The notes under the pieces were generated by a model that was not told the origin of the DNA, made no database searches, and was given only the letters and a program-made list of their open reading frames with translations. Positions 45,119 through 57,083 of a DNA stretch of 64,000 bases are shown here, in pieces (position 1 is the first letter of the stretch; each line of letters begins with the position of its first letter). Where the stretch lies: the NCBI GenBank assembly GCA_903862885.1, contig CAIOZU010000018.1:1-64000 (forward strand), given 5' to 3'. A program made the position numbers and the translations under genes. Source of the DNA: an uncultured Pseudomonadota bacterium (lineage in GTDB: Bacteria > Pseudomonadota > Gammaproteobacteria > Steroidobacterales > Steroidobacteraceae).

Positions 45119-45162
45119 TTGACAGGTACGCATAAATATGCAAAATATGCGAACTTTATGCA
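45119..45162 (+). promoter_or_regulatory. Candidate ArgR box and promoter of the arginine operon
   Basis: TTGACA (45119-45124) is a perfect -35 box; AAATAT (45143-45148) 18 bases later is a plausible -10. Over the spacer and -10 lies CGCATAAATATGCA (45129-45142), nearly an ARG-box palindrome of the TGCATAAATATGCA type. TATGC half-sites recur at 45146 and 45157, two helical turns apart from the first. Transcription would begin a few bases before the ATG at 45158, and no Shine-Dalgarno is seen. ArgR with arginine would block the promoter. Position of the start is inferred. Confidence 0.6.
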
Positions 45163-45634
45163 AACTGCCCCCCCACCACTGCCCCCAGCCGACCCGAGAC
45201 CCACCGAAGATCGGCGCGACACCCTGAAACGACTCATCAGTCAGGGCCGGATCGGGCGCCAGTCTGAACTCGTGCGGCTGCTCCAATCGGCAGGCCACGC
45301 CGTCACCCAGTCGAGTGTGAGTCGAGACTTACGCGATCTGGGGGTGGCTAAGAGGGGTGACCGTTACGTGTTGGATACCACGGGCAGTTCTCCTGCGGCG
45401 GGTTTGCCTGCGGTGGCCGCCTTTGTGCAAAGCGTGGTGGCTGCCGGCCCACATTTAATCGTGATCCGCACCACCACCGGTTCGGCCTCCAGTGTGGCAG
45501 CGGCCATCGATCAACGCCAATGGCCGGACATTGTCGGCACGCTCTCAGGTGACGATACGATATTTATCGCCACCACCGACGAGGGCGCGCAACGCACGCT
45601 ACTCGCTCGCCTTCAATCTTTTCAATCCCGCTAA
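45158..45634 (+). CDS. argR: Arginine repressor ArgR
   Basis: 158 residues from the ATG at 45158. The TTG at 45119 would also fit the frame, but it is the T-T-G of the -35 box. The N-terminal winged HTH has SQGRIGRQSELVRLLQSAGHAVTQSSVSRDLRDLGV, the ArgR pattern. The C-terminal domain has VIRTTTGSASSVAAAID and the GTLSGDDTIFIAT motif that binds arginine and forms the hexamer. It controls arginine synthesis and probably itself. First gene of the operon; argG starts 9 bases after its stop. Confidence 0.92.
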   Translation: MQTAPPPLPPADPRPTEDRRDTLKRLISQGRIGRQSELVRLLQSAGHAVTQSSVSRDLRDLGVAKRGDRYVLDTTGSSPAAGLPAVAAFVQSVVAAGPHLIVIRTTTGSASSVAAAIDQRQWPDIVGTLSGDDTIFIATTDEGAQRTLLARLQSFQSR

Positions 45635-45643
45635 AGAACCGCT

Positions 45644-46876
45644 ATGACTCAGTCAACAACGGGCGCTAAGCCCATTTTGCTCGCATTTTCTGGTGGCCTA
45701 GACACGTCTTTTTGCGTGCCGTGGTTAATCGAAACCTATCAGCGTCCGGTGATCACCGTGACCGTTGATACCGGTGGCATCGATGCGGATGCAGCGAAAA
45801 CCCTCGCCCAGCGCTCCCAACAGCTGGGTGCGATCAGCCATCACTTGGTGCCTGCCAAACCTCAGTACTTCGATCGCGTCCTCAAATTTTTATTAATGGG
45901 CAATGCACGACGCGGCCAACTGTATCCCTTCTGCGTGGGCGCTGAACGCGTCTTACAAGCACAGATGATCGCTAGTATGGCGACCACTTTAGGATCCACT
46001 ACCGTCGCGCACGGCTGCACGGCCGCGGGCAACGATCAAGTGCGCTTTGAAGTGGCGCTGCGTACCTTAGCGCCGGGCTTAGAGATCTTAGCGCCGGTCC
46101 GTGACCACGCCTTTAAGCGCACCGAACAACTTGCCTTTCTGCAGACCAGGCAGCTGCCAGTGCCGCCTCATGGCGCCGCCTACTCTGTGAATCGCGGCTT
46201 ATGGGGTGTCACCATCGGCGGCACCGAGACACTGACCTCGACCGGCAGCATTCCCGATGAGGCATGGGTTCTAAGTCGTGATGCCTTTAGCGCGCCCCGC
46301 GCGCCTGTACGCCATTCCCTGTCTTTTAAAAGTGGTGTTCCCAGTGCACTCAATGGTGTCGCCATGGACCCCGTCGCGATCATCGAGCAATTGGAAACTC
46401 TGGCCGCACCTTATGCTATTGGTCGCGGCATCCATCTAGGCGACACCGTCATTGGCACTAAAGGACGGGTCGCTTTTGAAGCGCCAGCGGCCGAAGTGCT
46501 CCTGACCGCGCATCGCGAATTAGAAAAACTGGTGCTGACGGGTCGTCAAGCGCGCATTAAGGAATTAGTGGCGATGCCTTATGGCGACTTGGTACACGAA
46601 GGCCATCACCTCGATCCGGTGTGCCGTGACATTGAAGCGCTACTGATGTCTTCACAGGAACGTGTCAGCGGTGATGTCCACTTATTATTTCGGCCCGGTA
46701 GTGTATTCATCGAGGGCGTTTCATCGCCTTGGTCTCTGATGACTGCATCTAAAGGCGTCTACGGTGAAGCCGCTGGCGAATGGACACCTGCCGATGCGCT
46801 CGGTTACTCCAAGATGCTGGCTCTCCCTGGTACTTTCTATACGCGCGCTGGCCAACAAGCGAAGGCTAAGTCATGA
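45644..46876 (+). CDS. argG: Argininosuccinate synthase
   Basis: 410 residues. It has the ATP pyrophosphatase P-loop AFSGGLDTSFC, the GCTAAGNDQVRFEVAL motif (the family's TGKGNDQVRFE) and a late GEAAGEWTP near the end. It condenses citrulline with aspartate. The motif variant resembles the argG type found with acyl-citrulline pathways, as I remember it. The next gene overlaps by 4 bases. Confidence 0.95.
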   Translation: MTQSTTGAKPILLAFSGGLDTSFCVPWLIETYQRPVITVTVDTGGIDADAAKTLAQRSQQLGAISHHLVPAKPQYFDRVLKFLLMGNARRGQLYPFCVGAERVLQAQMIASMATTLGSTTVAHGCTAAGNDQVRFEVALRTLAPGLEILAPVRDHAFKRTEQLAFLQTRQLPVPPHGAAYSVNRGLWGVTIGGTETLTSTGSIPDEAWVLSRDAFSAPRAPVRHSLSFKSGVPSALNGVAMDPVAIIEQLETLAAPYAIGRGIHLGDTVIGTKGRVAFEAPAAEVLLTAHRELEKLVLTGRQARIKELVAMPYGDLVHEGHHLDPVCRDIEALLMSSQERVSGDVHLLFRPGSVFIEGVSSPWSLMTASKGVYGEAAGEWTPADALGYSKMLALPGTFYTRAGQQAKAKS

Positions 46877-47949
46877 AATCTGTCGTCGTTGATAAAATTG
46901 CATCGATCACCCAAGCGCGCGCACTGGGCCATGAGTTACGAATCTCGGAAGACATCCCCTGTGAAGAGGGTGTAATCATTGTGGTTGAGGTGCTCACCGA
47001 GAAAAATACCTACAACATGCTGGAACTGACCAGCGGCCGCATGGCTAAAGTTTCCAAGGGCGACATCGTGGCCGGCGCCTTGGGACATCGCAAAGCATTG
47101 TTTGGCTACTCGGGTCATGTCCCCACCCAGATCAAACCGGGCGATGTCATCCAAATGCTCAATATTGGCGGTGTGCTCGGCGTATGCGATTCAGCCAACG
47201 CAGACCGCGGCCGTCCTTTTGACTGCCGTGTCTTAGGAGTTGTTTTACAGTTCCCTTTCCTAGGCGAGCGAATCGGCGTGCCAGCGCGCATCGGCCAACG
47301 ACCTCTCGATCTGGCAGCGCCACTGAACACACAAGGCGTGCCTGTGATCGCATTGGCTGGCACTTGCATGGAAGCCGGGAAAACCGCCGCAGCTTGCGCC
47401 ATCATCTCGCGCATGCGCCACCGCGGTCTTGCCGTGCACGCATTCAAAGCCACCGGCGTCTCCTTACGCCGCGACATCCTTGCAATGGAAGATGCCGGTG
47501 CACGGCGCTCCATGATCTTCACCGACTTTGGTGTGGGCACAACAACCGCCGCCGTCGGCCCCGCATTGACGCGCGCCATGCTCACCGAGATGGCCGTAGG
47601 ACAACCGGACGTCATCGTCTTTGAGTTGGGGGATGGCCTATTAGGAACCTACGGGGTTGAAGCGATCTTGGCAGCGGCCGATATCCGCCAGTCACTGACT
47701 GCGGTCGTTCTGTCCGCGAATGACCCGGTCGCCGCGTGGGGCGGCGTCAAGTTGCTGCGCGATAAATTCCTGATTGAGCCAGCGGTGGTCACTGGGCCTG
47801 CCACGGATAACCAAGTGGGCGTCGACATCATAGCGGCACAAATGGGGGTCAGCGCGTTCAATGCCCGAAGCCATGGCACAGAACTCGGCGATCATTTGCT
47901 GGAAGTCACCGGACTTTCCGCCAAGTTCCCCGCTAAATCGGCCGCCTGA
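46873..47949 (+). CDS. Uncharacterised P-loop protein in the arginine operon
   Basis: 358 residues. I do not recognise it with certainty; the P-loop and layout recall DUF1611-type proteins. An N-terminal beta-rich domain (about 1-150) has KVSKGDIVAGALGHRKA and IKPGDVIQML. The C-terminal domain holds a P-loop GTCMEAGKT (163-171), then AFKATGVSLRRD and a VIVFELGDGLLG strand that could be a Walker B-like site. There is no GNAT or other known acyltransferase motif. Both neighbours overlap it, so it is tied to arginine synthesis. Some DUF1611 members have been reported as D-glutamate N-acetyltransferases (DgcN; recalled). A role as the missing N-acylglutamate synthase is inference. Confidence 0.6.
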   Translation: MKSVVVDKIASITQARALGHELRISEDIPCEEGVIIVVEVLTEKNTYNMLELTSGRMAKVSKGDIVAGALGHRKALFGYSGHVPTQIKPGDVIQMLNIGGVLGVCDSANADRGRPFDCRVLGVVLQFPFLGERIGVPARIGQRPLDLAAPLNTQGVPVIALAGTCMEAGKTAAACAIISRMRHRGLAVHAFKATGVSLRRDILAMEDAGARRSMIFTDFGVGTTTAAVGPALTRAMLTEMAVGQPDVIVFELGDGLLGTYGVEAILAAADIRQSLTAVVLSANDPVAAWGGVKLLRDKFLIEPAVVTGPATDNQVGVDIIAAQMGVSAFNARSHGTELGDHLLEVTGLSAKFPAKSAA

Positions 47950-49016
47950 TGAACAGCCGCTTAAAAATTCCAACGGTCATTCTGGGTGGCACGGGCTATG
48001 TCGCTGGCGAACTCATTCGCCTGCTGCATATGCATCCTCACTTCGAGCGGGTGGCGGTGGTATCTGACTCTAAACCAGGCACGTCGGTGGCGAGTGCATT
48101 CCCCCACTTGGCATCGATCGTAGGCGAGCAGAGCTTTGTGTCGATCGACAGCGCGCAGCAATTACTGTGCGAGGCAACCGACAGCCTGGTGCTGGCAGCA
48201 GCCCCCCATGGTGTCTCAGCCACTCTCATCGACCAGCTTCTCACCGGCACAGCACGCGCCGGGCGATACCCTAAGGTGGTGGACATCTCAGCAGACTATC
48301 GTTTTAGAGATGCGGCTGCGTACCAGACTGTCTATCAGCATGCACATGGCGCACCGGACCGTCTGAGTGAGTTCACCTGCGCATTACCCGAACACACCAC
48401 CACCCTAGCCAGTCCACATGTTGCCCATCCAGGCTGCTTTGCCACGGCTATGTTGTTATCAATCGTTCCCTTAGTTGCGCTGCAACTGATCGAGCCGCGT
48501 GTGTTTGTCAGCGGCATCACTGGCAGCACCGGATCAGGCCGCACACCCACCGACGGAACCCATCACCCCCGAAGACACAGCGACCTCTACTCTTATGGCG
48601 CACTCCAACACCGGCATGCTCCAGAAGTCAGGTCGATCGTAAAAACCGTGACGGGTCAATCCATCGAGTGTCACTTTGTCCCGCACTCCGGACCCTTTGC
48701 GCGTGGCATCCATGCCACGACACAGGCCACTCTGATTAAACCGTTCTCCTCGCAGGAAATGATCGCCGCACTGCGTGATTTTTACGCAGATCAGCCATTC
48801 GTCCATGTCTTAGGTCATGCGCCGCGTCTCAAGGATGTGGTCAGCAGCAACTACGCGCATCTCTCAGCCACCACCGATGGCACCACGGTCGCCGTGGTCT
48901 CCGCCATCGATAACCTAACCAAAGGCGCGGCGGGCGGAGCCCTCCAGTGGGCTAATCGACTGTTTGGCTTTGAGCAAAGCACAGGATTGACTGCGCCTGC
49001 CCCCGGTTGGACTTAA
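47949..49016 (+). CDS. argC: N-acyl-gamma-glutamyl-phosphate reductase
   Basis: 355 residues. Rossmann start ILGGTGYVAGELIRLL, catalytic Cys163 in HPGCFATA, and the GITGSTGSGRTP and HFVPHSGPFARGIHATT segments, where the His-Pro-His type of residue acts in catalysis. It reduces acylglutamyl phosphate with NADPH. The ATG overlaps the preceding stop by one base. The closest pattern is the Bacteroidetes/Xanthomonas ArgC subtype, as I recall it. Confidence 0.95.
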   Translation: MNSRLKIPTVILGGTGYVAGELIRLLHMHPHFERVAVVSDSKPGTSVASAFPHLASIVGEQSFVSIDSAQQLLCEATDSLVLAAAPHGVSATLIDQLLTGTARAGRYPKVVDISADYRFRDAAAYQTVYQHAHGAPDRLSEFTCALPEHTTTLASPHVAHPGCFATAMLLSIVPLVALQLIEPRVFVSGITGSTGSGRTPTDGTHHPRRHSDLYSYGALQHRHAPEVRSIVKTVTGQSIECHFVPHSGPFARGIHATTQATLIKPFSSQEMIAALRDFYADQPFVHVLGHAPRLKDVVSSNYAHLSATTDGTTVAVVSAIDNLTKGAAGGALQWANRLFGFEQSTGLTAPAPGWT

Positions 49017-49037
49017 TTCTTAGGATATCCGCACATC

Positions 49038-50192
49038 ATGGTCACGGCAGTCCCTCACCACCCCAGTCACTTAGCACAGGTATTTGCGCAATACCCGTTG
49101 GAAGTGGTGCGCGCTCAAGGCTGTTGGCTAGAAGGACGCGACGGACAACGGGTGCTTGATTTCTATGGCGGCCATGCCGTGGCAGCGCTCGGCTACGGGC
49201 ATCCGCGCTGGATCGAGGCTCTGGAGCGACAAGCGCGTTCAGTCCTTTTTCAAACCAACGCCATCCCTATGGCGGTCCGCGAACGGGCTGCCGAGCGCTT
49301 AGTGGCTTTTGCAGGTCTAGGACTTGATCAGGTGTTCTTCGTGAACTCAGGGGCTGAAGCCAATGAAAATGCCCTGCGTACCGCGTTTCGCTTAACGGGA
49401 CGCCGACAAGCTATTGCCCTTGAACACGGCTGGCATGGTCGCACGGCCGCCGCGGGAGCTATCACTTTTGGTGCGCGTGACAAGTGGTATGGCTTTCCGC
49501 AGACGCCGTTTGATGTGCAATGGATTTCGCGCACCGATCCGGCTGCTGCACTCGCCATCACCCGAGACACTGCCTGTGTGATGGTCGAGCCCGTGCAGGG
49601 GCTCGCGGGGGCCTTTGAGGTACCCGTCGATGTACTGCGTGCACTGCGTGCGCGCTGCGACGAGGTCGGTGCGCTGTTGATTTTTGATGAGGTGCAATGC
49701 GGTGTTGGTCGTACTGGATATCCCTTTGGCGCCAACCGCGTCGGGGTCACGCCCGACCTGCTGACCACCGCCAAGGCCCTTGGGGCCGGCTTCCCAGTGT
49801 CCGCGTTGCTGATGTCACCGCAAGTCGCCGGTGCGCTCAAGATTGAAGACATGGGGACCACCTTTGGTGGCGGCCCATTGGCCTGTGCGATCGTTGAAAC
49901 GGTCATCGATATCATCGAGTCAGAAGGTTTGCTTGAAAACGTTAACGCCATGTCGAGTCTCATTCAGAACACCTGTGTCGGTGGGGTGGTGAGTGGGGTA
50001 CAAGGCGCCGGCTTACTGCTCGGTCTAAAAACCACACGCCCCGCTAAGGCCATCCAAAAAGAATTATTGGCACGTGGCGTCTTTGCAGGCACCGCCGCCG
50101 ATCCACACATTTTGAGACTGCTACCGCCCTTCACTCTCACCGCAGAACACGTGGGACTACTGGCTCAGGCACTCCAGGAGTTAGCCCCATGA
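49038..50192 (+). CDS. argD: N-acylornithine aminotransferase (ArgD type)
   Basis: 384 residues, class III PLP transaminase. It shows DFYGGHAVAALGYGHP, NSGAEANENALR, EHGWHGRTAAAG, MVEPVQG, LIFDEVQCGVGRTG and the PLP lysine in TTAKALGAG. It makes acylornithine from the semialdehyde. It lies in the arg operon, where its role is unambiguous. Start ATG with GGATATCC upstream, 21 bases after argC. Confidence 0.93.
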   Translation: MVTAVPHHPSHLAQVFAQYPLEVVRAQGCWLEGRDGQRVLDFYGGHAVAALGYGHPRWIEALERQARSVLFQTNAIPMAVRERAAERLVAFAGLGLDQVFFVNSGAEANENALRTAFRLTGRRQAIALEHGWHGRTAAAGAITFGARDKWYGFPQTPFDVQWISRTDPAAALAITRDTACVMVEPVQGLAGAFEVPVDVLRALRARCDEVGALLIFDEVQCGVGRTGYPFGANRVGVTPDLLTTAKALGAGFPVSALLMSPQVAGALKIEDMGTTFGGGPLACAIVETVIDIIESEGLLENVNAMSSLIQNTCVGGVVSGVQGAGLLLGLKTTRPAKAIQKELLARGVFAGTAADPHILRLLPPFTLTAEHVGLLAQALQELAP

Positions 50193-51190
50193 GTCTCGCC
50201 CGCTTCCTAGATCTCGCTGACCTCTCCCCGGAGGAAATCCGAGATCTTCTCGCCTTAGCTGATCGACTCCAGCAACATCCGGAACCACAAGCGTTAGCCG
50301 GAAAAATTCTGGGACTGATATTTTTAAATCCTTCCTTAAGGACTTTGGCCTCGATGCAAGCCGGCATGGCGCGACTCGGCGGCAGTTCTTTCGTGATCAC
50401 CCCCGGCCACGGCACCTGGGCACTGGAAACACGCACCGGGGTCGCCATGGACGGCGCCGCGGCCGAGCACGTCCGCGAGGGGCTTCCCGTGCTCGCGTCT
50501 TATTGTGATGTGATGGGCATTCGCGCATTCGCCGAGGGCCATGATCTGGCCAACGACGTGGCTGATACACATTTTAAGAGCATGGCGGCTCTGATTAAAA
50601 AGCCACTCATCAATTTAGAGTCGGCGATCAATCATCCCTGTCAAGCGCTCGCCGACTGGAAGACACTAGATGATCTTCACATCGCACCGCGCACCAAATT
50701 TGTCTTGTCATGGGTGCCACACCCACGCGCACTGCCACTCGCCGTTCCAGCGGCCACAGCGCACATGGCAGCGCTTCGCGGTCACGAAGTGGTGGTGCTT
50801 CGCCCCGATGGCTTCGCGCTACCCGATGCGGTCATAGATCGCGCACGGGCCGCTGCGCGACTGAGTGGCGGCTCGATCACCGAGACCGATGATCGTGACA
50901 GTGCGCTGAAAGGCGCTCACGTGGTTTATGCCAAAGAGTGGGGCTCGACACGACACTATGGCGATGCAGAGGCCGATGCGTCGCTGCGTCGCTCCCTCAC
51001 CAACTGGCAGCTCACCGAACAGACCTTTGCTCAAGCCACGCCCCACTGCAAGCTCATGCACTGCTTGCCAGTGAGACGTAATGTCGCGATCGCAGAATCC
51101 CTCCTGGATGGACCGCGCAGCGTCGTATTGCAAGAAGCACACAACCGACTGGTGGTGCAGATGGCCATCTTGTATCGCTTACTTAAATAA
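50189..51190 (+). CDS. argF': N-acylornithine carbamoyltransferase (succinyl- or acetyl-ornithine)
   Basis: 333 residues. Carbamoyl-phosphate residues are conserved: Ser49-Leu-Arg51-Thr52, Trp77, Arg112, His149-Pro-Cys-Gln152, and His291-Cys-Leu-Pro-Val-Arg296-Arg-Asn. Numbering runs almost the same as in the Xanthomonas campestris enzyme. There, Glu92 fixes acetylornithine specificity and Lys302 is carboxylated; the matching residues here are Ala92 (MDGAAAEH) and Ala300. Bacteroides succinylornithine transcarbamylase has Pro90 and Ile at these places. The WVPHPRALPLAVP and HCLPVRRN segments also look like the Bacteroides protein. It is therefore more likely a succinyl- than acetyl-ornithine enzyme. 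Overlaps argD by 4 bases. Confidence 0.88.
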   Translation: MSLARFLDLADLSPEEIRDLLALADRLQQHPEPQALAGKILGLIFLNPSLRTLASMQAGMARLGGSSFVITPGHGTWALETRTGVAMDGAAAEHVREGLPVLASYCDVMGIRAFAEGHDLANDVADTHFKSMAALIKKPLINLESAINHPCQALADWKTLDDLHIAPRTKFVLSWVPHPRALPLAVPAATAHMAALRGHEVVVLRPDGFALPDAVIDRARAAARLSGGSITETDDRDSALKGAHVVYAKEWGSTRHYGDAEADASLRRSLTNWQLTEQTFAQATPHCKLMHCLPVRRNVAIAESLLDGPRSVVLQEAHNRLVVQMAILYRLLK

Positions 51191-51205
51191 TCTTACTCAA
51201 ATAAT
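51178..51205 (+). repeat. Tandem 14-base repeat over the argF' stop codon
   Basis: CTTACTTAAATAAT (51178-51191) is followed directly by CTTACTCAAATAAT (51192-51205), one mismatch. The first unit contains the argF' TAA stop. The remaining gap to argB is a pyrimidine-rich stretch (51206-51250) with few G. This is the largest gap inside the operon. Confidence 0.8.
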
Positions 51206-51264
51206 TCTCTCACTCGACGATTCCGACTCTCTCTTTTCTTTTTTATTCACTTGCAGGAACTTCC

Positions 51265-52203
51265 ATGAGCTACCGCCCCGAACAAGCTGCCGCCATTCGC
51301 GCCATGCGCAGCGCCGCACCGTACATCCGCATGTACAAGGGCAAAGTCTTCATCGTTAAGATTGGGGGTGCCATATTCTCGAACCCTCAAGCGGTCCGAT
51401 CACTGGTCGAGCAGGTGGCGATCTTGCATCAGGTTGGCATCCGGGTGGTCCTAGTGCACGGCGGCGGTCCACAGTTAGATGAAATGCAGCGCTCCCTCGG
51501 TGTGGAACCGACCCTGATCGACGGCCGGCGAGTAACCGATGAAAAAACGGTCGAGTTAACCGTCATGGTGCTCAACGGTCTTCTGAACACACAGCTGCTC
51601 AGTCTGTGTCGCGAATTGGGGCTCGATGCGGTAGGCATCTCAGGTCTTGATGGCGGCTTAGTGCGCGCGCATAAAAGAGCGCCTGTAAAAAGCACGAGCG
51701 GCGTGCTGGTGGATTATGGGCAGGTAGGCGACATCGAAGGAGTGGATCCGCACGTAATCCGCTCATTACTGGATGCGGGCTATATGCCGATCGTCAGTCC
51801 ACTGTCAGCCGATGCAGAAGGCAATGTACTGAATATCAATGCCGACACGGTCGCCGCGCATCTGGGTGCAGCGCTCGGTGCTGAGAAGCTACTACTTTGC
51901 ACCGGTGCTGCCGGAATTTTTGAGCAACTCGCTGATCCTTCGACGTTGGTGTCCTACACGGACTTGGCTGGACTGAAGCGTCTCGAAGCGCTCGGTTGCT
52001 TTGCGGATGGTATGCTGCCCAAAGCAGGAGCGATTGAGACCGCGATCAAAGGCGGCGTTCGCCGCGTACATGTGATCTCGTTTAAGTCTACCGATGCCCT
52101 ATTGGCGGAAGTGTTCACCAACGAAGGGCTTGGCACGCTGATTGTTGCCGATATCAAAGTCCTGTCGCCCGCTGAGCAAGTCGTGGGGGCAAAAAAACCA
52201 TGA
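51265..52203 (+). CDS. argB: N-acylglutamate kinase
   Basis: 312 residues, amino-acid kinase fold. It has VKIGGAIF with the ATP-site lysine, VVLVHGGGPQLDEM, NINADTVAAHLGAALGA and GMLPKAGAIETAIKGG. All catalytic residues look present. The N-terminal helix EQAAAIRAMRSAAPYIRMYKGK resembles the extension that makes arginine-sensitive kinases (inferred). Unlike the Xanthomonas kinase there is no fused GNAT domain, so it does not supply the missing synthase. AGGAACTTCC lies before the ATG, and argH overlaps its end. Confidence 0.95.
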   Translation: MSYRPEQAAAIRAMRSAAPYIRMYKGKVFIVKIGGAIFSNPQAVRSLVEQVAILHQVGIRVVLVHGGGPQLDEMQRSLGVEPTLIDGRRVTDEKTVELTVMVLNGLLNTQLLSLCRELGLDAVGISGLDGGLVRAHKRAPVKSTSGVLVDYGQVGDIEGVDPHVIRSLLDAGYMPIVSPLSADAEGNVLNINADTVAAHLGAALGAEKLLLCTGAAGIFEQLADPSTLVSYTDLAGLKRLEALGCFADGMLPKAGAIETAIKGGVRRVHVISFKSTDALLAEVFTNEGLGTLIVADIKVLSPAEQVVGAKKP

Positions 52204-53387
52204 GCCGCTTATGGGACAAGGGTAAGCCGCTTGACCAAGCAGTCCTTGAATACACAGCGGGTGAAGATTTCGCCTTGGATGAGCGACTGGTGTCTTATGA
52301 CATTCAAGCCTCTCTGGCCCACGCTCAGAGTCTGCACACGGCGGGCCTGCTGTCGGCTGCTGATTTAGCAACTCTCACGAGCGCATTAGATGAGGTCGCG
52401 GCGGCACATGAGAAGGGGGCTTGGCAGATCACCCTTCAAGATGAAGATGGACAAACCGCACTCGAGGCACAGCTGACCGAGCGCGTGGGTCCGATCGGCG
52501 GTCGCATTCACTTAGGACGCTCACGAAACGATCAGGTCCTAACGGCACTGCGTCTCTACCTCAAAGACGCTAACCGGGACCTCACTCGCGGCGCTGAAGC
52601 GGTAGCGACAGCGCTTGATCGACTGGCGGCGAGGCACCCAAAGCTCGTACTGCCCGGTTACACGCACATGCAACAGGCCATGCCGAGCTCCGTGGATTTA
52701 TGGGCGGGTGGTTTTGCATCGGAGTTTAGAGACAATACAAGCCGCTTAGCGCAGGCCATCGGTCGGGCTGACAAAAACCCACTGGGTTCTGCGGCCGGCT
52801 ACGGCACCCCGGGTCTACCATTGAATCGAGATGACACCAAACAGCGCTTGGGTTTTGCGGTGAACCATGAGCCGGTGACTGCCGTACAACTGTCGCGCGG
52901 CAAGGCCGAAGCGCAGTTGCTATTTGAAATCGCACTCATGATGACTGATGCCGGGCGACTGGCGGCGGACCTATTGCTGTTTTACACACAAGAGTTTGCA
53001 TTTATCACGCTGCCGGATCATTTCACTACCGGCTCATCGATCATGCCGCAAAAGCGTAATCCGGATGTGTTCGAATTGATTCGCGGCCGCAGCAGTAGCG
53101 CACACGCCTGCTTATCAGAGGTGCTGGGGATCATTGCGAAATTGCCGAGTGGCTATCAGCGCGACCTGCAGCTCATTAAAGTGCCGCTGTTCCGCGGCAT
53201 CGATCTGGCGTTACAGACTCTTCAGATTTTACCCATGGCGTTGGATGGCCTTCAGTTTAGACCAGAGAACCTACACTTGGATCCTGCGATCCACGCCGCT
53301 GAGCGCGCCAATCGCTTGGTCGTCGAAAAAGGCATACCCTTTCGTGATGCCTATCGACAGGTCGCCGCTGATCTTCTTAAGAAGTAA
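52200..53387 (+). CDS. argH: Argininosuccinate lyase, short and atypical
   Basis: 395 residues, about 50 shorter than usual (430-460), missing the C-terminal tail after FRDAYRQVAADLL. Catalytic elements are present: GRSRNDQV, PGYTHMQQAMPSS with the conserved His, and the GSSIMPQKRNPD loop with the catalytic Ser. The conserved EDxH-xx-E segment is changed: Glu82-Asp83-Gly84-Gln85-Thr, where nearly all ASLs have His at 85. It splits argininosuccinate to arginine and fumarate. Last gene of the operon, overlapping argB by 4 bases; convergent with fghA. Confidence 0.85.
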   Translation: MSRLWDKGKPLDQAVLEYTAGEDFALDERLVSYDIQASLAHAQSLHTAGLLSAADLATLTSALDEVAAAHEKGAWQITLQDEDGQTALEAQLTERVGPIGGRIHLGRSRNDQVLTALRLYLKDANRDLTRGAEAVATALDRLAARHPKLVLPGYTHMQQAMPSSVDLWAGGFASEFRDNTSRLAQAIGRADKNPLGSAAGYGTPGLPLNRDDTKQRLGFAVNHEPVTAVQLSRGKAEAQLLFEIALMMTDAGRLAADLLLFYTQEFAFITLPDHFTTGSSIMPQKRNPDVFELIRGRSSSAHACLSEVLGIIAKLPSGYQRDLQLIKVPLFRGIDLALQTLQILPMALDGLQFRPENLHLDPAIHAAERANRLVVEKGIPFRDAYRQVAADLLKK

Positions 53388-55667: not shown

Positions 55668-57083
55668 ATGAAACCCATCCTGACCGCCATCCTGTGTGGG
55701 GCGCTACTCGCTGTATCCACTGGGGCTCACAGCGACTCTCCCCTCGACGCCAGCGCGGAGGCGCGCGCCCTGCTTGCCACCTTAGTCAGCTTTGATACCG
55801 CAAGCGGCCACGGCCAAGTGCGCCCGATGGCGGAGTATCTTGCCACCCAATTCAAAGCGGCTGGATTTGACGCCGCCGACATCACGCTCCTCCCACTTGG
55901 CGACACCGCCTCGCTGATCGTCCGCTACCACGGTGATGGCAGTAGCGGCAAACCCATTGCCTTTATGGCACACATGGATGTGGTGCCCGCAAAACGCAGC
56001 GATTGGCAACGCGATCCCTTCACTTTGGTTGAGGAAAACGGTTATTTTTTTGGACGCGGCACACTGGATATGAAAGAAGATGTGGCGCTGCTCACGGAGA
56101 CATTTATCCGACTGAAACGCGCTCACTTCACTCCCAGTCATGACCTGATCATTGTATTCACTGGAGATGAAGAAACGTCTGAAGACACGGCGCATGACTT
56201 AGTAGATCACCACCGCGACTTAATCGATGCGGAATACGCACTGAATGGTGACATGGGCAGCGGTGTGTTGGATGCTGCCACGGGCAAGCCGCTGCTCTTT
56301 TATTTACAAGGCGCCGAAAAGAGTGTGGCGGCCTTCACCTTAACGGCCAAAAACCCCGGTGGCCACAGCTCACAACCGCGTCCAGACAACGCCATTTACG
56401 AATTAGCCACAGCACTCACAGCCATCAGCCATTATCAGTTCCCGACACAATCCAATAGCTGGACCTTGAGTGATTTTAAAGCCGCCAGTGCGGTCACGCC
56501 GGGGCCGCTTGGCAAAGCCATGGCTCGCTTTGCTGATCACCCCAAAGATCAAACAGCCGCCGCGACGATCGCCCAGTCGCCTCAATATGTCGGCAAATTA
56601 AAAACCACCTGTGTTGCGACCCAAATCAGCGGTGGCCATGCGGAAAACGCCCTGCCGCAAACCGCCTCCGCTGTAGTGAACTGCCGTATTTTTCCAGGCA
56701 CGTCTGCTGACGCGGTGCAAAGTCGTCTACACGCATTGGCCGGCCCCACCATCACCATCACTTCAAACTACCCACCTACCTACTCTGACCCCTCACCACT
56801 CCGACCCGATGTGGTGGCAGCGGTCAAGACTGCTGTGGGCGCTGCCAACCCCGGAGCGATCGTGTCGCCCACCATGGTGGCTTATGCAACCGATGGATCC
56901 GTCTTTAGAAATGCAGGCATACCCACCTACGGCGTTGGCAGCATGTTTATCAAAGATGGCGAAAATTATTCACACGGACTAGACGAACGCATTCCGGTGG
57001 ATCGCTTTTATAATGGCTTGATTTACTGGGACGTGATCATCCACACGCTGGCAGGCGCCTCATCAGCGAACAGTATAAAATAA
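55668..57083 (+). CDS. Exported M20 family metallopeptidase
   Basis: 471 residues with a signal peptide ending near AHS/DS (about residue 23). Zinc ligands and catalytic residues follow the M20 pattern: AHMDVVP, GRGTLDMKEDV, TGDEETSED and the late SHGLDERI. A lid domain lies around residues 210-330. It probably trims periplasmic peptides or acyl-amino acids (carboxypeptidase or aminoacylase type). ArgE is also M20, but it is cytoplasmic, whereas this one is exported. It stands alone, about 2.3 kb from the arg operon. Confidence 0.85.
   Translation: MKPILTAILCGALLAVSTGAHSDSPLDASAEARALLATLVSFDTASGHGQVRPMAEYLATQFKAAGFDAADITLLPLGDTASLIVRYHGDGSSGKPIAFMAHMDVVPAKRSDWQRDPFTLVEENGYFFGRGTLDMKEDVALLTETFIRLKRAHFTPSHDLIIVFTGDEETSEDTAHDLVDHHRDLIDAEYALNGDMGSGVLDAATGKPLLFYLQGAEKSVAAFTLTAKNPGGHSSQPRPDNAIYELATALTAISHYQFPTQSNSWTLSDFKAASAVTPGPLGKAMARFADHPKDQTAAATIAQSPQYVGKLKTTCVATQISGGHAENALPQTASAVVNCRIFPGTSADAVQSRLHALAGPTITITSNYPPTYSDPSPLRPDVVAAVKTAVGAANPGAIVSPTMVAYATDGSVFRNAGIPTYGVGSMFIKDGENYSHGLDERIPVDRFYNGLIYWDVIIHTLAGASSANSIK

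Follow-up and report, generated by a model that had tools for sequence, protein, structure and literature searches.

A conserved P-loop gene between argG and argC as a candidate N-acylglutamate synthase in Steroidobacteraceae

Results

We analyzed a stretch of 64,000 nucleotides (the window) from an uncultured member of the Steroidobacteraceae (Gammaproteobacteria), namely positions 1 to 64,000 of the forward strand of contig CAIOZU010000018.1 in assembly GCA_903862885.1. It carries a compact arginine operon on the plus strand (45119-53387), for which Pfam and NCBIfam families gave the order argR-argG-X-argC-argD-argF'-argB-argH. Gene X, a candidate N-acylglutamate (N-succinylglutamate) synthase, occupies 46873..47949 and encodes 358 amino acids, from an ATG at 46873 to a stop codon ending at 47949. 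A first-pass annotation had described this 358-residue open reading frame, with a P-loop (GTCMEAGKT) at residues 163-171, between argG and argC, and the description was confirmed. The other genes are argR (45119..45634; arginine repressor, start codon uncertain), argG (45644..46876), argC (47949..49016), an argD-type class III aminotransferase gene (49038..50192), argF' (50189..51190; acetyl/succinylornithine-type transcarbamylase), argB (51265..52203; 312 amino acids, an amino acid kinase only, with no acetyltransferase domain) and argH (52200..53387), all on the plus strand. Family searches revealed no known N-acylglutamate synthase or deacylase among the operon genes. The stop codon of argG overlaps the start of X by 4 bases (ATGA), and the stop of X overlaps the start of argC by 1 base (TGATG). 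X had been called fused into the operon by overlaps; the overlaps hold and the fusion does not. The three genes make separate proteins and are probably translationally coupled.

No Pfam or NCBIfam family matched X above its cut-off, the best Pfam family being DUF1611. There was likewise no GNAT or NAT domain match in either database and no match to PF01960 (ArgJ) in Pfam. The Walker A motif (residues 163-171; 47359..47385) fits the canonical pattern GxxxxGK[ST]. In an alignment of 22 rows (A4), its K170 and T171 were invariant in 22/22 rows, as were Lys192 (47446..47448), which hhalign pairs with the GYKP lysine of E. coli BioD, Asp201 (47473..47475) and Glu251 (47623..47625), the latter within the motif ELGDG. 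The N-terminal region (about residues 30-140; 46960..47292) has no family match. A low-confidence prediction places strands there within residues 34-126, in keeping with the beta-rich N-terminal domain proposed earlier; modelled alone, the region gave a poor model (pLDDT 58.6) with no PDB match at E<=0.001, from which no fold could be inferred. Searched against PDB sequences, X gave a single phmmer match (a resolvase, E 0.91) and its profile gave none. Of the three matches that a viral structure library gave at E<=0.001, two were CTP synthases, and scans of viral contigs found no relative. A literature search restricted to open-licence PMC papers found no paper on this gene.

X is widely conserved. 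It matched 50 of 60 genomes searched (its own included), 48 of them at E<1e-130; apart from its own genome, these 48 comprise 47 with 58-97% identity to it. A scan of genome contigs revealed 195 stretches encoding a relative. These related stretches and the strong matches across genomes rule out a chance reading frame. The best 80 of the 195 were used as loci; several are recorded as Steroidobacteraceae or Steroidobacter, and Povalibacter uvarum and Peristeroidobacter agariperforans are named isolates among them. With fewer than 390 bases allowed between neighboring matches, X was flanked by argG and argC at 78 of the 80 loci and at 27/27 loci of other families. The exceptions were L048, with no argG, argD or argF' match, and L092, in which only part of argG was taken in. 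L048 is a metagenome contig reading argR-X-argC-argB, which may reflect an assembly artefact or a real loss. Averaged over 26 operons of the order that come from other families, X was 65.4% and argG 65.5% identical to the window's copy, and the remaining six operon genes gave means of 44.8-60.3%.

Across the class, the X profile matched 28 of 369 genomes: five of the window's order, 19 with weak matches, and four in other orders with strong matches (G427, G181, G374 and G259; E 1e-101 to 1e-117). At all four distant loci X stood after argG and before argC, once with a 580-base gap, and the three on long enough contigs had the order argD-argF'-argB-argH-argG-X-argC. Some copies of X looked interrupted: it was split into two frames in G134 (L220) and over two contigs in G113, and the match crossed one in-frame TGA in G085, G135, G137 and G141.

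We surveyed 117 genomes of the window's order for X (orthologue at E<1e-50), ArgJ, TIGR01890 (matches counted at E<=0.001, mainly to its ArgB-like part) and PF04768, the acetyltransferase domain of the Xanthomonas-type N-acetylglutamate synthase-kinase. X orthologues were found in 82 genomes and PF04768 in 20. Six genomes, five with paralogues and G127, matched X only weakly and were left out of the orthologue count. Co-occurrence with an intact N-acetylglutamate synthase had been set beforehand as a refutation; none was observed, with PF04768 in 0/82 X genomes, ArgJ in 0/117 genomes and TIGR01890 above its cut-off in 0/117. X and the synthase-kinase thus excluded each other in 102/102 genomes having either (Fisher P = 1.2e-21 by genomes and 1.6e-4 by families, both uncorrected for ancestry). 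An ArgB-like TIGR01890 match was present in 103 genomes, comprising the 82 with X, the 20 with PF04768 and G127; the remaining 14 had no TIGR01890 match, X orthologue or PF04768. In G127 (88% complete), the contig carrying argD, argF', argB and argH is 4468 bases long and stops short of where X would lie, which is probably why this genome shows neither an X orthologue nor PF04768.

Within the window's genome (99.3% complete), TIGR01890 at E<=0.001 picked out ArgB alone. At the sensitivity of the TIGR01890, ArgJ and PF04768 searches, we rejected the idea that this genome hides an ArgA, an ArgJ or a synthase-kinase. X stands in an arginine operon with no other known synthase. We recovered rpoB from 26 of 30 genomes searched, and the resulting tree needed six changes between the X type and the synthase-kinase type, of which well-supported branches force at least two for each label. 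It is likely that one operon type has repeatedly been replaced by the other.

The transcarbamylases of the two operon types also differ. Residues Glu92/Asn185/Lys302 characterize acetylornithine transcarbamylases, and A, S, P, V or Q/P/V, I or E the succinylornithine ones (PMC4581275). In the window, argF' has Ala92 (50462..50464; Glu92 in the X. campestris acetylornithine enzyme), Pro183 (50735..50737; Asn185 in X. campestris numbering) and Ala300 (51086..51088; Lys302), which fits the succinyl set at two of three sites. Of the 80 contig loci, 69 gave a usable argF', with APA in 68 and APV in one; 30 genomes sampled from the 82 with X (own included) gave APV (23), APA (6) and APE (1). All three distant X operons with argF' fit the succinyl set at all three sites (PPE, PPE and VPE). 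Seventeen of the 20 synthase-kinase genomes gave an argF' copy, reading ENK (14) or ENQ (3), and the other three had a partial copy (G053), a copy of another type only (G095) or a weak match only (G111). Genomes with the synthase-kinase are also described as encoding acetylornithine transcarbamylase (PMC4490483). Because acetylornithine-type residues are absent from argF' at every X locus examined and present in synthase-kinase genomes, X probably accompanies a non-acetyl, succinylated pathway; on these residues, succinyl appears a more likely acyl group than acetyl.

Seven genomes carry transcarbamylases with odd specificity residues (KPS, RPS, QPS, APS or VPG; L136-L142 and L215-L217). At the three loci read, they lie outside the arginine operon; the adjacent small gene looked thioesterase-like by eye, and another gene nearby looked polA-like.

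We also surveyed other candidates for the first step. The window's genome has 13 GNAT matches. Ten were compared with NCBIfam at E<=1e-8; six matched RimI, a spermidine acetyltransferase, a RiPP acetyltransferase or a small number of further acetyltransferases, with a single protein passing a cut-off, that of RimI. The remaining four of the ten had no match. Against the glutamate-synthase models, nine of the 13 had no match at E<=1e-8; the other four, made up of one of the unmatched proteins and the three outside the ten, had none at E<=0.001. In 54 of the 82 X genomes there was no TIGR01890 match besides ArgB. The best rival gene that we found is in G063 and encodes a GNAT of 172 amino acids (L199:2478-2993, minus strand). 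It scored 30.9 bits against a cut-off of 202.85 (TIGR01890) and 24.8 against 180 (PRK07922), and its plasmid-borne relatives in Xanthomonas, Rhizobium, Agrobacterium and others carry, where annotated, only the label GNAT family N-acetyltransferase. By tblastn it was found in no other operon locus compared, 84 of which (L199 included) reach 900 bases or more past the argH match. We took it as a general GNAT.

The deacylase was considered in the same way. An ArgE-like M20 gene adjoins the kinase in 6/6 synthase-kinase genomes searched, between argG and argB at the three loci read; these copies scored 130-180 bits, under the ArgE cut-off. The operon of the window has no M20 gene. In its genome and in G063, G050, G047, G029 and G181, the best TIGR01892 match was DapE, above the DapE cut-off, and G063 (one contig) and G050 had no TIGR01892 match besides it. 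As DapE takes succinyl off an amino acid derivative, it might serve as the desuccinylase of the X-type pathway. For the corresponding step in Bacteroides, GapMind assigns a protein distantly related to DapE (PMC7311316). A gene for a 471-residue M20 family peptidase, whose start resembles a signal peptide by eye, lies near the operon (55668-57080). L031 likewise has an M20 family peptidase near its operon, and in G002 an M20 match lies about 9 kb from X.

The first-pass annotation had also likened X to the DUF1611/DgcN proteins. We rejected membership of that family. X scored 14.4 bits against PF07755 (DUF1611; cut-off 25) and distant X proteins 15.9 and 14.3, and one paralogue of the X2 branch scored 25.5. 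X had no match to PF17396 (DUF1611_N, Rossmann-like), on which a true member, L280, scored 88.5. The DUF1611 P-loop reads GTD(C/G)xxGKxxT, with GTDC or GTDG in 13/13 DUF1611 rows, and X has GTCMEAGKT. X orthologues alone aligned with DUF1611 at probability 2, and CTP synthase and dethiobiotin synthetase scored as high as the DgcN type. By these comparisons, X is only a distant relative of the DUF1611 P-loop domain. L280 lies in the window's genome outside the operon (G000 contig 13, 16133-16723) and matched PDB 7xrj at E 9e-89. It could acetylate glutamate; a DUF1611 match at E<1e-50 occurred in just 13 of 229 class genomes.

Other branches of the superfamily have other neighbors. X2, about 30% identical to X, forms an operon in the order flavin reductase, M20 peptidase, X2 (L121-L125, L270 and L271 in the order; L258 and L259 in the class, the L258 contig ending before the flavin reductase). 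Families were scanned in L122 alone, and the other loci were assigned by tblastn or reading. In a third branch, an ABC-transporter-like gene of about 570 amino acids follows (L260-L264, L267, L268, L272, L373 and L375); this family was scanned in L262 alone, L373 and L375 were assigned by annotation, and L265 and L266 were not clear. Two plasmid members of this branch are annotated as DUF1611 domain-containing protein. A further homologue (L374; 24% identity, E 2e-20), on the Priestia megaterium plasmid NZ_CP085446.1 (88630-89691), lies in a phosphonate-type cluster with an ornithine carbamoyltransferase, two ATP-grasp enzymes, an M20 peptidase and a PEP-mutase-family enzyme. The repeated M20 neighbors of X-like genes fit a family making N-acyl or peptide-like bonds, which M20 enzymes cut.

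Discussion

From the gene order, the conservation, the missing known synthases, the transcarbamylase residues and the invariant P-loop with its nearby residues, we infer that X, on balance, probably makes N-acylglutamate, and probably N-succinylglutamate, as the first-step synthase of arginine biosynthesis. The suggestion that X is the missing N-acylglutamate synthase therefore survives in part: the context fills the first-step gap with X, DUF1611/DgcN membership fails, and succinyl is a likelier acyl group than acetyl. In the proposed pathway, X would succinylate L-glutamate at its alpha-amino group, and the N-succinyl intermediates that follow would be handled by ArgB, ArgC and ArgD. The argF' enzyme would carbamoylate N-succinylornithine, citrulline would be freed by a desuccinylase encoded elsewhere in the genome (perhaps DapE of lysine synthesis), and ArgG and ArgH would complete arginine.

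As to the acyl donor, two features tip us slightly toward ATP plus succinate, with X as an acyl-phosphate ligase: the Walker A motif is canonical, and a second invariant lysine aligns with the dethiobiotin synthetase lysine. Succinyl-CoA would be nearly as likely. An ATP-dependent ligase was among the alternatives listed in the first-pass annotation. In the full version, X would be an ATP-dependent succinate:L-glutamate ligase with a P-loop like that of dethiobiotin synthetase, on which succinate would be phosphorylated before its acyl group went to glutamate, and DapE would be the desuccinylase. We offer this version tentatively and think it less likely than not.

Several observations weigh against a synthase role for X in a succinylated pathway. 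The mutual exclusion is replicated in only 8 versus 7 families. The rpoB tree is poorly resolved, with 9 of 23 inner branches unresolved and a bootstrap that had not settled. The operon around X differs as a whole from that of the synthase-kinase, which implies operon replacement and not a clean replacement of one gene. PF04768 was found in 0/14 control genomes, so the search had no outside positive control. The third specificity site of the window's argF', an alanine, falls outside the published V/I/E set. Weak TIGR01890 matches confined to the acetyltransferase part occurred in 28 of the 82 X genomes. In G063, about 300 bases separate the end of argH from the GNAT gene that follows it in the same orientation; the product of this gene is 47% identical to a GNAT encoded in the window's genome (L334), and G112, of the same genus as G063, has a TIGR01890 match at a like distance from argH. 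Finally, a protein that passes the TIGR01892 cut-off for ArgE is encoded in 3 of 17 X genomes searched (G037, G046 and G427); the proposed pathway does not account for this true ArgE, which would be superfluous if all intermediates were succinylated.

In one rival explanation, X serves the operon as a regulator or accessory NTPase, and a GNAT encoded elsewhere makes N-acylglutamate. P-loop domains are frequent in regulators, the window's genome has 13 GNATs to choose from, and the gene after argH in G063 has its relative there. Yet argR is already in the operon, X is as well conserved as argG and follows it even in other orders, and X excludes the synthase-kinase. The G063 protein is far under every glutamate-synthase cut-off, its plasmid relatives carry only the family name, it is absent from the other loci compared, and most X genomes have no TIGR01890 match besides ArgB. 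We regard this explanation as unlikely. It is less probable still that X is a CoA-dependent, DgcN-like N-acetyltransferase turned to L-glutamate and making N-acetylglutamate. A P-loop domain of similar fold would suit it; against it stand the transcarbamylases of the X loci examined, which have no acetylornithine residues, the equally high scores of CTP synthase and dethiobiotin synthetase, and the very low probability of the alignment of X orthologues with DUF1611.

The missing deacylase suggests another role, in which X would be a transacylase or deacylase returning the acyl group of N-acylcitrulline to glutamate and so filling both gaps of the operon. The X operon has no deacylase, synthase-kinase genomes keep an ArgE-like M20 gene beside the kinase, and the single TIGR01892 match of G063 and of G050 is a DapE. 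A Walker A motif is needless for either reaction, however, and DapE already cleaves an N-succinyl amide. We consider this role very improbable.

If X is a glutamate-succinylating synthase, it would do what normally falls to enzymes of quite another kind, and many genome annotations would lose a false arginine gap. A function would also be assigned to one branch of a P-loop superfamily in which the others adjoin M20 amidohydrolases and ABC transporters. Were X an ATP-dependent ligase, arginine synthesis would begin without any acyl-CoA.

Compared with known systems, the Xanthomonas-type synthase-kinase takes the place of the first-step enzyme in the order's second operon type, as X would in its own; unlike X, it has an acetyltransferase domain fused to the kinase and is paired with an acetylornithine-type argF'. 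DgcN/DUF1611 proteins (PF07755, PF17396; PDB 7xrj) and X appear similar in the fold of the P-loop domain and share a similar short stretch after the P-loop (FRATGQT vs FKATGVS), whereas X sits in an arginine operon and DgcN, titled an N-acetyltransferase, is reported in a pathway from D-glutamate to L-glutamate. BioD (dethiobiotin synthetase) is like X in that the Walker A motif and the downstream lysine align and the P-loop half has a similar fold; this alignment is short and local (39 columns, probability 25), and the N-terminal region and the pathway differ.

The Bacteroides protein BT3761 is a GNAT. Known glutamate acetyltransferases of the arginine pathway are described as ArgJ or as having a GNAT-related domain (PMC3827942, PMC4490483); for C-NAGS, one account gives no relationship to other known N-acetylglutamate synthases (PMC4490483) and another finds a GNAT domain (PMC3827942). 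According to PMC4490483, the gene for the glutamate-succinylating enzyme had not been identified as of 2015. The 2020 GapMind paper proposes BT3761 for the succinylated pathway of Bacteroides, and reports it to be more than 50% identical to the N-acetylglutamate synthase Cabys_1732 (PMC7311316). Judged by these descriptions, X probably differs from BT3761 in family. The Bacteroides pathway has a succinylornithine transcarbamylase and proposed succinylated intermediates, as the X pathway probably does. X would be a second, apparently unrelated answer to glutamate succinylation, in Gammaproteobacteria.

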